NCBI GenBank assembly: GCA_012837685.1
Contig: DUQS01000007.1
Span: 1 to 34,170 of the forward strand
Length of the DNA: 34,170 bases
From: Bacteroidales bacterium
GTDB lineage: Bacteria; Bacteroidota; Bacteroidia; Bacteroidales; Paludibacteraceae
Direction: 5' to 3'
Positions within the stretch are counted from its first letter, which is position 1. The number at the start of each line of letters is the position of its first letter. This document shows positions 27,865-31,548 of this stretch, piece after piece. The notes under the pieces are model-generated. The model was given only the letters and a program-made list of their open reading frames with translations. It was not told the DNA's origin and did no database searches. Position numbers and translations under genes: made by a program.

Positions 27865-27872
27865 CAAATTTA
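27865..27872 (-). promoter_or_regulatory. Possible -7 box of the RNA methyltransferase gene
   Basis: TAAATTTG on the minus strand, overlapping the ABC-F stop codon and 55 nt before the methyltransferase ATG. There is no properly spaced -33 element, so read-through from the ABC-F gene is an alternative. Confidence 0.3.
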
Positions 27873-29792
27873 CAAAGGATTTTGAGCCTTAATTTCCTCC
27901 AAACTTTCTGAGAGCAACTGCCACTCGTACATCTTTTGTTCCAATGTGTGAGTCGTTTTTTTATAACTATCAAATAGCTCTTGTGAGCTGTTGCCGTCAG
28001 CCATTTTAGCTTCCATTTCAGTAATTTCAGTTTCCAATTCGGTTATTTCGTTTTCAGCATCGGCTACCAACTTTTCCGCTTTGCGCAATTTGCGATTAAA
28101 CTCTTTGCGCATTTCATAGTTCTGCTTATTTTCGGAAACTTCCGTTACAACAACAGGTTCTTTGGCAACGACAAAACCTTCTTCTTCACTCCGCTTCATC
28201 TCCAAAAATTGGTGAATGTCGCCTATAAATTCACGCAAATTGCGATTTTTAAACTCGTAGATTTTTTCCACTAAGCCATCTAAAAAATTGCGGTCGTGTG
28301 ATACTATAATAACAGTGCCGTTAAACGCCTTTATCGCCTCTTTGAGAACATTTTTAGACTGTATGTCCAAATGGTTGGTCGGTTCGTCCAATATTAGCAA
28401 ATTGACAGGCTCCAACAGCAAACGAATCATCGCCAAACGGCTTTTTTCGCCGCCTGAAAGCACTTTTACCTTTTTGTCGGATGCTTCACCGCCAAACATA
28501 AATGCGCCGAGAATATCGCGTATTTTTGTACGCACGTCGCCCACCGCCACACGGTCGACAGTTTCGAAAACCGTCAGTTCGCCATCCAGTAAATCAGCCT
28601 GATTTTGAGCAAAATAACCGATTTTCACCTGATGTCCTAATTTCAAAAAACCATCATAAGCCACTTCGCCCATAATACACTTTATCAAAGTCGATTTTCC
28701 TTCGCCATTTCTGCCAACAAAAGCCACTTTTTCACCTCGTCGAATAGAAAAATTCACATTTTCGAGCACAACTTTATCGCCATACCATTTAGAAAGACTT
28801 TCTATTTTAACAGGTTGAATACCGGAATGAGGCGCAGGCGGAAATTTAAGGTTCAAACGACTTGTGTCTTCCATATCCACTTCAAGACGTTCCAATTTTT
28901 CCAACTGCTTAATGCGGCTTTGTACCTGCACGGCTTTGGTCGCCTTGTAACGAAAACGTTCGATAAATTCCTCAGTATCAGCAATCATTTTCTGCTGATT
29001 TTCGTAAGCACGAATTTGCTGTTCGCGACGTTCTTTGCGCAATTCCAAATAATTGCTATAGTTTACCTTGTAATCGTAAATTTTTCCCAATGAAATCTCT
29101 ATGGTTCTTGTAGTTACGGCATCAATAAAAGCTTTGTCGTGGCTCACCAACACCAGCGCACTGCTAGTAGACGACAGAAAATTTTCGAGCCACACAATGG
29201 ATTCAATATCCAAATGGTTAGTCGGTTCGTCAAGCAACAACAAATCAGGACGACGAAGCAAAATTTTTGCCAATTCGATGCGCATACGCCAACCGCCGCT
29301 AAATTCGCTTGTTTGACGGTCAAAATCACTGCGAAGAAAACCCAAACCCAGTAGCGTTTTTTCCAAATCCGCTTGGTAATTATCGCCACCAAAAAAATTC
29401 AAACGTTCGTTCTGGTAGGAAACATCTTCCAACAGTTGATGATACGCCTCGCTTTCGTAATCGGTTCGCACAGCTATTTCGCGATTTAATTCATCTATTT
29501 TGCACTCTATCGACTTAATTTCCTGAAACGCCAATTCAGCCTCTTCCAACACCGTACGTCCGCTGTTCAACGCCATGTGTTGCGGCAAATAGCCGATAGT
29601 CATCTCTTTCGGTAGCACTATCCTACCCGACGATGGCTGTAGCTGTCCCGACAAAAGTTTCAACAAAGTTGTTTTTCCTGCGCCATTGCGACCAATCAGC
29701 ACAATTTTCTCTTTGTCGTTGATTAAAAATGAGATGTTTTCAAACAACGGCTCTTTACCGAACGTCATCGAAACCTGCTCTATTGATACCAT
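27870..29792 (-). CDS. ABC-F family ATPase
   Basis: A 640-residue protein with two ABC ATPase domains and no membrane segments. I start at ATG 29792 (MVSIEQVSMTFGKEPLF), because a longer reading to 29876 would begin upstream of the TATCTTTG box at 29833-29840. Domain 1 has Walker A GRNGAGKTT (about 35-43), signature EFSGGWRMR and LLLLDEPTNHLD. The interdomain linker is strongly basic and helical (YLELRKERREQQIRAYENQQK, then IERFRYKATKAVQVQSRIKQLEKLE), the P-site tRNA interaction motif. Domain 2 has GRNGEGKST, LSGGEKSR and LLILDEPTNHLD. A C-terminal coiled coil follows from about residue 565. Such proteins act on the ribosome; this resembles the Uup/YheS-like housekeeping types, with no sign that it is a resistance determinant. 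Confidence 0.93.
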   Translation of the reverse strand: MVSIEQVSMTFGKEPLFENISFLINDKEKIVLIGRNGAGKTTLLKLLSGQLQPSSGRIVLPKEMTIGYLPQHMALNSGRTVLEEAELAFQEIKSIECKIDELNREIAVRTDYESEAYHQLLEDVSYQNERLNFFGGDNYQADLEKTLLGLGFLRSDFDRQTSEFSGGWRMRIELAKILLRRPDLLLLDEPTNHLDIESIVWLENFLSSTSSALVLVSHDKAFIDAVTTRTIEISLGKIYDYKVNYSNYLELRKERREQQIRAYENQQKMIADTEEFIERFRYKATKAVQVQSRIKQLEKLERLEVDMEDTSRLNLKFPPAPHSGIQPVKIESLSKWYGDKVVLENVNFSIRRGEKVAFVGRNGEGKSTLIKCIMGEVAYDGFLKLGHQVKIGYFAQNQADLLDGELTVFETVDRVAVGDVRTKIRDILGAFMFGGEASDKKVKVLSGGEKSRLAMIRLLLEPVNLLILDEPTNHLDIQSKNVLKEAIKAFNGTVIIVSHDRNFLDGLVEKIYEFKNRNLREFIGDIHQFLEMKRSEEEGFVVAKEPVVVTEVSENKQNYEMRKEFNRKLRKAEKLVADAENEITELETEITEMEAKMADGNSSQELFDSYKKTTHTLEQKMYEWQLLSESLEEIKAQNPL

Positions 29793-29832
29793 AAGTCGCT
29801 TGTTAAAATTTAATCGCTTATCGAAAACGTTG

Positions 29833-29840
29833 CAAAGATA
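29833..29840 (-). promoter_or_regulatory. -7 promoter box of the ABC-F gene
   Basis: TATCTTTG on the minus strand, 40 nt before the chosen ATG at 29792. It helps decide that start over the upstream in-frame ATG. Confidence 0.5.
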
Positions 29841-29882
29841 CTCAAAAAAGGCTTTTATATTCGCATTAAAACACATTTAACT

Positions 29883-29942
29883 TTGCCAAATCATATTCTG
29901 ACATTCCGTCAGAATGTCAAAATCAATGTGACGTTTTGGCAA
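29883..29942. promoter_or_regulatory. Operator-like inverted repeats upstream of degP
   Basis: Site 1 is TGACATTCCGTCA (29899-29911) and site 2 is TGACGTTTTGGCA (29929-29941). Both have a TGAC-N5-G(T/G)CA layout, and their starts are exactly 30 bp apart. Site 1 also overlaps a second inverted repeat, TGACATTC (29899-29906) with GAATGTCA (29912-29919). An outer pair, TTGCCAAA (29883-29890) and TTTGGCAA (29935-29942), brackets the set. This looks like a stress-regulator binding region for the protease gene; the factor is unknown. Confidence 0.5.
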
Positions 29943-30004: not shown

Positions 30005-30034
30005 TTTGGAATATAATTTGATAGAATATTTTCG
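30005..30034 (+). promoter_or_regulatory. Possible degP promoter
   Basis: TTTG at 30005-30008, 18 nt, then TATTTTCG at 30027-30034, one mismatch from TAnnTTTG, 32 nt before the degP ATG. It lies about 60 nt downstream of the operator-like repeats. Confidence 0.35.
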
Positions 30035-30066: not shown

Positions 30067-31548
30067 ATGAACAAACAAAGTATTTTAAAAACAACTTCTT
30101 TAATTGTTGGCATAATTGCCATCAGTGTTGCAACTACTGCCGTTACTAACCGTTTATTGTCCGAAAAATCCATTCCTGAAGGAACTACGGTATCAACCCC
30201 TACTCGATTTGCATCGGAAACGTTCGGAACTGCCACACCGACAGACTTTACCGTGGCTGCCGAACACACAGTCAACAGCGTGGTACACGTAAAAACCACG
30301 TTTCAAACAAACACACGCAATTATAGCACCGACCCGTTTTTTGACTTTTTCTTTGGACGACCTGAAAGGTCATATCCGCAACAACCCCAAGAAAGAGTTG
30401 GTACAGGTTCGGGAGTGATTATTTCCGAAGACGGCTACATTATTACCAACAACCATGTTGTACAAAAATCAACCAACGTAGAAGTTACGCTAAACGACAA
30501 ACGTTCGTTTCCGGCAACTGTCATCGGCACAGACCCTTCTACCGACATCGCATTGCTGAAAATCGATGCTAAAAATCTACCGGTTATTCCGTTTGGCAAT
30601 TCCGATGCGCTAAAAATCGGCGAATGGGTGTTGGCTGTCGGCAATCCGTTTAATCTCACTTCCACCGTAACGGCGGGAATTGTGAGTGCCAAAGCGCGTA
30701 ACATCAATATTTTAGATGCCGATATGAAAATTGAGTCGTTCATACAAACCGATGCTGCCGTAAACCCCGGTAACAGCGGTGGCGCATTGGTGAATACACG
30801 TGGCGAATTGGTGGGCATTAACACCGCCATTGCATCGCAAACAGGCTCATACACAGGCTATTCGTTTGCTGTTCCCATAAGCATTGCCAGCAAAGTAGTT
30901 GCCGACCTGAAAGAGTTCGGTGTTGTACAACGTGCCGTGCTTGGCGTTGAAATTCGCGACATCAATGACGAATTTGCCAAAGAAAAGAAACTGACTTTAT
31001 TGAATGGTGCTTACGTGGTAAATGTAGTCGAAAATAGTTCTGCTCAAGATGCCGGCATTGAACCGGGCGACATTATCACGAACATTAACGGCACGAAAGT
31101 GAAATCGGTAGCACAACTTCAAGAACAAATCGGACGTTACCGCCCGGGGGATAAAATTACCGTAACATTTGTACGTAAAGAAAAAACTGAAACACGCACA
31201 GTGGAATTGAAAAACAGAGCCGGTGGAACAAGTATTGTCAAAGCTGTGGATATGAGCATATTAGGTGCTAAATTTGCACCTATTTCCGACCAATTGAAAT
31301 ACAAATTCCAAATTGCTTACGGTGTACAGGTTACTTCCGTTACCAAATCGGGACTATTTGCTAAAAACGGAATTCAAAAAGATTTTGTGATTTTGAAAAT
31401 CAACAACACGCCAGTACGTTCGGAAAGCGATATTGAAAATCTGTTCAGTTCGGTAATGAACAGCAGCGACAAAGGAAAAGCATTGTTCGTGTCGGGATTT
31501 AATCCTGCCAACGGTCGCATAGCGCACTACGCCATCAATCTAGAATAA
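30067..31548 (+). CDS. degP: DegP/HtrA (Do-like) periplasmic serine protease
   Basis: A 493-residue envelope protease and chaperone that degrades misfolded exported proteins. One N-terminal hydrophobic segment (TSLIVGIIAISVATTAV, about 10-26) serves as a signal or anchor. The trypsin-like domain has the triad His130 (IITNNHVVQ), Asp160 (STDIALLKI) and Ser237 (NPGNSGGAL). Two PDZ domains follow: the first around 300-390 with GAYVVNVVENSSAQDAGIEPGDIITNING, the second around 400-490 with GVQVTSVTKSGLFAKNGIQKDFVILKIN. An LA-loop-like segment rich in Pro/Gln (FFFGRPERSYPQQPQERVG) lies before the catalytic His. It is a single-gene unit with operator-like repeats upstream and a strong terminator after it. 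Confidence 0.95.
   Translation: MNKQSILKTTSLIVGIIAISVATTAVTNRLLSEKSIPEGTTVSTPTRFASETFGTATPTDFTVAAEHTVNSVVHVKTTFQTNTRNYSTDPFFDFFFGRPERSYPQQPQERVGTGSGVIISEDGYIITNNHVVQKSTNVEVTLNDKRSFPATVIGTDPSTDIALLKIDAKNLPVIPFGNSDALKIGEWVLAVGNPFNLTSTVTAGIVSAKARNINILDADMKIESFIQTDAAVNPGNSGGALVNTRGELVGINTAIASQTGSYTGYSFAVPISIASKVVADLKEFGVVQRAVLGVEIRDINDEFAKEKKLTLLNGAYVVNVVENSSAQDAGIEPGDIITNINGTKVKSVAQLQEQIGRYRPGDKITVTFVRKEKTETRTVELKNRAGGTSIVKAVDMSILGAKFAPISDQLKYKFQIAYGVQVTSVTKSGLFAKNGIQKDFVILKINNTPVRSESDIENLFSSVMNSSDKGKALFVSGFNPANGRIAHYAINLE

Follow-up and report, generated by a model that had tools for sequence, protein, structure and literature searches.

The window (the whole stretch of DNA that was analysed, 34,170 nucleotides from a Bacteroidales bacterium of the Paludibacteraceae) carries a degP/htrA gene on the forward strand at 30067–31548, which encodes a 493-aa Do-family periplasmic serine protease with PDZ domains (TIGR02037, above its cut-off) and is the gene presumed to be regulated. 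A 190-bp region separates it from a divergent ABC-F type ATPase gene on the reverse strand (27870–29876), and nothing in this analysis spoke in favour of control of the ABC-F gene by the palindromes described here. The original prediction was that two TGAC-N5-GTCA-like sites lie 30 bp apart before degP within a larger inverted repeat, and both features are present. Site 1 of the putative enhancer, TGACATTCCGTCA (29899–29911), is exact to TGAC-N5-GTCA and lies 95 bp before the T of a predicted -24 element; site 2, TGACGTTTTGGCA (29929–29941), has one mismatch, lies 65 bp before the same element, and is 30 bp from site 1, start to start. The outer repeat has its arms at 29883–29890 (TTGCCAAA) and 29935–29942 (TTTGGCAA), and these may be further TGCCA/TGGCA half-sites, the left one a lone TGCCA and the right one part of site 2. 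An overlapping alternative palindrome, CGTCAGAATGTCA (29907–29919), has a half-site in common with site 1 and lies 87 bp before the -24 element. Between these sites and the gene is the predicted sigma-54 promoter of degP, TGGAATATAATTTGAT (30007–30022, forward strand), of the form GG-N10-GA and with GGAAT for the usual GGCAC; a transcript made from it would begin at about 30032–30034. Rfam families gave zero matches in the window at gathering scores.

As a motif, TGAC-N5-GTCA stood only in part. It is not enriched in the window as a whole (11 places with at most one mismatch, 9.27 expected), and in the whole genome its exact form is rarer than the reversed control (10 vs. 18 places). It is, however, the same palindrome as TGNCA-N3-TGNCA, seen through two degenerate copies: site 1 has one mismatch to this refined form, and none of the sites in the degP region of the window is exact to it, each carrying one mismatch. 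Of 5000 dinucleotide shuffles of the 190 bp, 5 produced two or more TGAC-N5-GTCA-like sites with at most one mismatch, and none of 5000 produced the three TGNCA-N3-TGNCA sites seen at that tolerance (29899, 29907, and 29929), the latter motif having been refined using data from relatives and with the degP region of the window in view. The clustering of sites in this region is not due to chance.

Relatives provide a broader view of the refined palindrome. In 70 degP upstream regions from the same family (81 genomes matched; those left out had short or weak matches or were not fetched), it occurs exactly in 14, against 0 of 70 in the reversed control, and with at most one mismatch in 39, against 2 of 70, which is partial conservation of the kind predicted for degP orthologues. 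A scan of spacers from 0 to 19 at degP shows a sharp peak at spacer 3 (14 regions, with at most 6 at any other). For the other genes, 30 loci each were taken, with 26 used for htpG, where four had no start found. Enrichment near other stress genes had been named as the second check, and it is borne out by the refined motif: exact sites precede htpG in 24/26 regions (reversed 0/26), groES in 19/30 (0/30), hsp20 in 15/30 (0/30), and dnaK in 12/30 (1/30), and with at most one mismatch the counts become 26/26 (5/26), 27/30 (1/30), 26/30 (5/30), and 28/30 (3/30), respectively; the upstream sequences are related and the counts are not independent. Gene starts in many relatives were guessed as the first in-frame ATG or the start of the match, and "upstream" is shifted or partly coding at L115 (hsp20), at L200 and L220 (htpG), and in some degP rows. 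The exact-site share is lowest at degP among the five genes, and the consensus over all 90 exact sites in these sets is cTGaCAwwwTGtCAg. It could still be argued that the palindromes arose by chance and have no function, given that, taken as bare patterns, both TGAC-N5-GTCA and TGNCA-N3-TGNCA lack genome-wide enrichment; the ortholog counts already contradict this, and together with the gene association, the reversed controls, and the phasing described below they leave that explanation with next to no probability. A separate element was also observed upstream of degP in relatives. A tandem GTTAA-N5-GTTAA, at about -130 to -225, is found in 18 of 70 regions (L039 and 17 others; 0/70 reversed), GTTAA-N16-GTTAA likewise in 18/70 (1/70 reversed), and the tandem sometimes co-occurs with the palindrome. 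It is missing from the window and from the congener G011, where the best matches have 3 and 4 mismatches.

In the genome from which the window comes, the bare palindrome is not enriched (27 exact places vs. 37 reversed). Twenty-three of the 27 lie inside open frames of at least 70 codons and the remaining four are intergenic, before lon, htpG, hsp20, and dnaK; for TGNCA-N3-TGNCA only location matters, not bare frequency. The same genome has one site before groES and two before clpB, each with one mismatch. As an aside, an exact palindrome was also seen within the gene that precedes clpC (L088:1501-1513), 158 bp ahead of a sigma-54-like TGGCACGTTTTTTGTC in that same gene, and this case was not counted as shown.

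A GG-N10-G element lies between palindrome and start codon. When GGYAY-Nk-TTTG was scanned over spacings, a single peak appeared at k=4, with 0–4 regions at each other spacing, and GGYAY-N4-TTTG is present before degP in 22/70 regions, hsp20 in 19/30, dnaK in 22/30, htpG in 22/26, and groES in 8/30, where the -12 box is often TATGC. The GGAAT of the window falls outside the GGYAY form and has the same GG-N10-G spacing as in the orthologues; the element, GG-AATATAATTT-GA, has a sigma-54 score of 13.25, its departures being GGAAT for GGCAY and GA for GC. In the congener G011, degP has the promoter TGGTATGTTTCTTGAT, also GG-N10-GA, with an exact palindrome 97 bp away. The gene for sigma-54 itself, rpoN, has a match in 94 of the 101 family genomes, with 93 scoring above the cut-off, and is encoded in this one too (G000:C23:17667-18140, E 1.9e-54).

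Palindrome and promoter stand in a regular spatial relation. This was examined in regions reaching at least 12.5 on a hand-made sigma-54 score, which were 25/70 for degP, 26/30 for hsp20, 30/30 for dnaK, 22/26 for htpG, and 26/30 for groES. All 74 exact sites in these regions are upstream of the -24 element and none is downstream, where about 18% of the examined bases lie. The gap from the palindrome to the T of TGG clusters at 12, 22, 34, 43–45, 53–56, 63–66, 74–76, 86–88, and 95–97 bp, with nearly empty valleys between, and phasing is blurred beyond about 97 bp. Among gaps of at most 140 bp, a period of 10.5 bp, or one helical turn, fits best (nR2 26.6; 49 exact sites, without htpG), and the 118 sites with at most one mismatch give an nR2 of 48.9 at a period of 10.55 bp, compared with 1.8 for the reversed control (76 sites with at most two mismatches). 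When promoters were permuted among regions of the same gene, 0 of 1000 trials reached the observed values, the maximum nR2 being 8.4 for exact sites (26.6 observed) and 9.3 for one-mismatch sites (48.5 observed). The tallest distance class has its site at about -45; textbook bEBP enhancers are more distant than this. In this genome, the gaps are 12 bp at lon, htpG, and groES, 12 and 42 bp at clpB, and 74 bp at dnaK, with the groES and clpB promoters scoring 12.25, just below the 12.5 threshold; hsp20, with gaps of 113, 121, and 152 bp, does not keep the phase. Taken alone, degP gives a weak phase signal (12 sites with at most one mismatch, nR2 4.9), and several more distant degP sites fall outside the phase.

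HrcA with CIRCE (consensus TTAGCACTC-N9-GAGTGCTAA) and HspR with HAIR (CTTGAGT-N7-ACTCAAG) typically work through palindromes ahead of heat-shock genes, and the sites could be read as operators of such a heat-shock repressor, released on stress. In 186 upstream regions, however, CIRCE was found within 4 mismatches in none (across the five gene sets, the best matches have 6–7 mismatches of 18), and HAIR within 3 mismatches in two, both of degP. Further, none of the 74 exact sites examined sits over or behind a promoter, and whole-turn spacing at nine successive positions fits an activator better than a repressor, all of which makes a repressor very improbable.

It is also conceivable that the code is real for htpG, groES, dnaK, lon, and clpB while the degP copies in the window are a relic, degP being under a primary-sigma promoter or another regulator. 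Each window site has its mismatch, the GGAAT of the degP promoter is weaker than GGCAC, and the GTTAA-N5-GTTAA of the 18 relatives indicates that degP can have another regulator. Against this, three near-sites in 190 bp were never reproduced by shuffling, the window gaps of 65, 87, and 95 bp each fall on a phase peak, the congener keeps an exact site at 97 bp from its own GG-N10-GA, and both window and congener are without the GTTAA element. We regard a relic as improbable, clearly less so than a repressor, and favour degP as a member of the same phased set with predicted sigma-54 promoters.

The composite element was also sought without choosing by gene, by scanning GTDB species genomes for the palindrome followed after 9–39 bp by TGGCAY-N4-TTTG, which returned at least 118 stretches. 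Among the 118 matches listed, some of them from close relatives (e.g., L260 and L376), 84 had a first downstream frame named by BLAST as HtpG (37), DnaK (30), GroES (5), Hsp20 (4), ClpB (3), Lon (3), ClpC-like (1), or DegP (1); 16 lacked a downstream frame of at least 50 codons, and for 18 BLAST gave no match. Ten of these last frames were put to Pfam, giving three GroEL, two GrpE, two SecA, and one each of LemA, a TonB plug domain, and DUF2188. Chaperone, protease, or secA genes thus lie downstream in 91 of the 118 matches listed (at L296, the frame named GroEL begins 338 bp downstream). Going by record titles, Bacteroidota account for 102 of the 118, and for 88 of the 91 heat-shock-type stretches; the other 16 listed include lon in a Neomarinimicrobiota (L362) and a Latescibacterota (L369) genome and groEL in a Planctomycetota genome (L377), which suggests an older origin of the composite element. 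The gaps among the matches listed are again near 12, 23, and 32–35 bp. The non-heat-shock stretches among them, meant as an inner phasing control, show weaker clustering of their own (R 0.59 at 11 bp), probably because genuine sites are among them. We also observed the composite element before secA at L297 and L338, which would link secretion to the heat-shock set. The sister classes were viewed through 29 dnaK loci from 28 genomes (one of 30 loci was dropped, having no start), in which exact palindromes occur in 8/29 (0/29 reversed), palindromes with at most one mismatch in 16 (3 reversed), and GGCAY-N5-TTG in 11/29, compared with 0–2 at other spacings. Since dnaK of the sister classes carries both palindrome and promoter, the code extends past class Bacteroidia.

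A sigma-54 promoter with phased upstream sites points to a bEBP. This genome has six PF00158 matches, two of them strong, which we call EBP-A and EBP-B. EBP-A (L138:1087-2238) consists of a receiver and an AAA+ domain and ends after the AAA+ lid, and a domain search gave no HTH match in it. Strong PF00158 matches are present in three relatives as well, each in an open frame 389–393 aa long, similar in length to EBP-A. EBP-B (G000:C52:7480-8727) has an AAA+ domain (PF00158, 224 bits) and a Fis HTH (HTH_8, 45.7 bits), without a receiver. Its loop reads GAFTSA, GSFTGA, GAFTGA, or GSYTDA in an alignment of 12 rows, and its best solved-structure matches are NtrC-family AAA+ domains. Between the AAA lid and the HTH, at residues ~286–304 (in P0002), is a stretch near-invariant in the 12 aligned proteins, REILYQVLFDMKKDM, which could serve for control, for instance as the docking site of a chaperone or repressor. 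A single EBP-B match per genome was found in 94 of 101 family genomes (E up to 1e-80). The next gene on the same strand is lptE at 22 of 30 loci, and in four genomes (G002, G007, G035, and G040) groES lies 1.5–1.7 kb behind EBP-B, also on the same strand. Since only EBP-B, of the two strong bEBPs in this genome, has an HTH, it is by elimination the most likely activator and the presumed binder of the palindromes.

Phylum-wide, the EBP-B search matched 296 of 296 genomes at 1e-70, because the AAA+ domain is shared, and genomes without EBP-B were not told apart by it. In addition, sister classes with only distant bEBPs show the motif, so that the motif does not track close EBP-B orthologues. The cis-code may be right and its binder another protein, either a DNA-binding partner from outside the bEBP class, with EBP-A recruited by it, or a bEBP that escaped recognition. 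The presence of EBP-A as a second strong bEBP, the three strong PF00158 proteins of G018, the weaker best bEBP matches in the sister classes that carry the motif, and an assembly in 99 contigs, from which genes may be missing, all speak for this, while the missing HTH of EBP-A and the HTH and single-match distribution of EBP-B speak against it. We consider another binder unlikely, if a little less so than a relic at degP, and retain EBP-B as the best candidate for activating the phased sites.

The upstream region of EBP-B, included as a control gene, has no exact palindrome in 30 loci. With one mismatch, 23/30 have a site (3/30 reversed), mostly as a single sequence that recurs across loci and overlies the EBP-B promoter. 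Among the 21 loci whose start was located (L378-L407; the other 9 of 30 gave no row in this comparison), 9 have the promoter TAATTTTGTCAGT, where a primary-sigma -7 box (TAnnTTTG) runs into a TGTCAG half-site, an arrangement that would possibly suit autorepression by EBP-B. Autoregulation through an exact site, considered as a candidate, was rejected on the count of 0/30, the one-mismatch TGTAATTTTGTCA overlapping the primary-sigma -7 box instead.

Our preferred reading, to which we give a probability of roughly 0.8, is that the degP palindrome pair are enhancers in phase with a sigma-54 promoter and part of a heat-shock code, with EBP-B as the most likely activator. The pair, about three helical turns apart, would serve as upstream activating sites phased with the promoter at 30007–30022; a dimeric bEBP would bind both, assemble its AAA+ ring, bend or loop the intervening 65–95 bp so as to contact sigma-54 RNA polymerase in its closed form, and drive open complex formation upon protein misfolding. 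The proposed code runs from cTGNCA-N3-TGNCAg, through a gap of about 12 bp lengthened by whole 10.5-bp turns, to TGGCAY-N5-TTG, and would also control lon, htpG, groESL, clpB, dnaK, and probably hsp20, both here and in Bacteroidota at large. The idea of a dimeric regulator of heat or envelope stress was thus right in kind, once the motif is taken as TGNCA-N3-TGNCA; the sigma-54 promoter, the 10.5-bp phasing, the need for a bEBP as activator, and the mainly cytoplasmic heat-shock gene set had not been foreseen.

How heat-shock genes are switched in Bacteroidota, a dominant phylum of gut and environment, is poorly understood, and we know of no sigma-32 in this phylum. The wider system is likely a sigma-54 heat-shock enhancer code with a single activator. 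We also lean, at slightly better than even odds, toward a wider role for EBP-B, in Bacteroidota and in related phyla, as the missing master regulator of heat shock: it would activate sigma-54 promoters in place of sigma-32, read cTGNCA-N3-TGNCAg in phase and often from a proximal position near -45, join cytoplasmic and envelope quality control (groESL, dnaK, lon, clpB, htpG, degP, and secA), and perhaps limit itself at its own promoter. A phased sigma-54 enhancer that commonly lies at about -45 is of interest for how bEBPs reach polymerase. What further work gains is an enhancer exact enough to be searched for, a rule of helical phase, a set of target genes, and a single candidate for the activator.

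Sigma-54 heat-shock promoters in Bacteroidota have already been published. Transcript mapping in Flavobacterium psychrophilum placed -24/-12 (SM4) promoters before groESL, lon, dnaK, grpE-dnaJ, htpG, and clpB, and tied genes with SM4 promoters both to the quality control of proteins and to envelope stress, leaving open that distinct activators might be involved (PMC9723704, in the parts considered here). Scoring with a sigma-54 PSSM, a survey from 2025 saw enrichment of hits ahead of the heat-shock genes of Bacteroidota and Planctomycetota; it also cites grpE and groES of B. thetaiotaomicron as sigma-54-dependent (PMC12316311, likewise in part). The systems in these two papers have the same heat-shock genes and -24/-12 promoters as described here, but the portions considered give no upstream activating sequence, phasing, degP case, or named activator. 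For degP specifically, RprY was considered as a regulator and set aside, as the terms htrA, degP, consensus, motif, and binding site are absent from the main text of PMC3646045 and PMC6032018 in a term search. An enhancer or activator for the sigma-54 heat-shock genes of Bacteroidota was not found in the open-access literature, as judged from titles and the starts of abstracts, most subscription papers lying outside this scope. Within the scope of that search, neither this enhancer with its phasing nor the proposed activator had been described.

In enteric bacteria, the NtrC enhancer of glnAp2 pairs two dimer sites at a distance of three turns, ahead of a sigma-54 promoter, with weaker NtrC sites near -45 and -66 and TGCACC-like half-sites. 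The degP region resembles it in having paired dimer sites three turns apart before a sigma-54-type promoter, but differs from it in its half-sites, in that EBP-B has no receiver, and in the commonest distance across the gene sets, which puts one site at about -45. PspF is closer in architecture, with an AAA+ domain and HTH but no N-terminal regulatory domain, an envelope theme, and possible binding at its own promoter. EBP-B differs from PspF in the conserved insert between AAA lid and HTH and in its proposed targets, which are general heat-shock genes; as a candidate PspF it was rejected, scoring 259 bits in TIGR02974, where the cut-off is 443.55. In E. coli, degP is controlled by CpxR, which binds tandem GTAAA-N5-GTAAA. 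The likeness here is an envelope protease under a dedicated stress regulator, whereas the window has palindromes and a sigma-54-type promoter, and it is the GTTAA tandems of its relatives that are more like the CpxR box.
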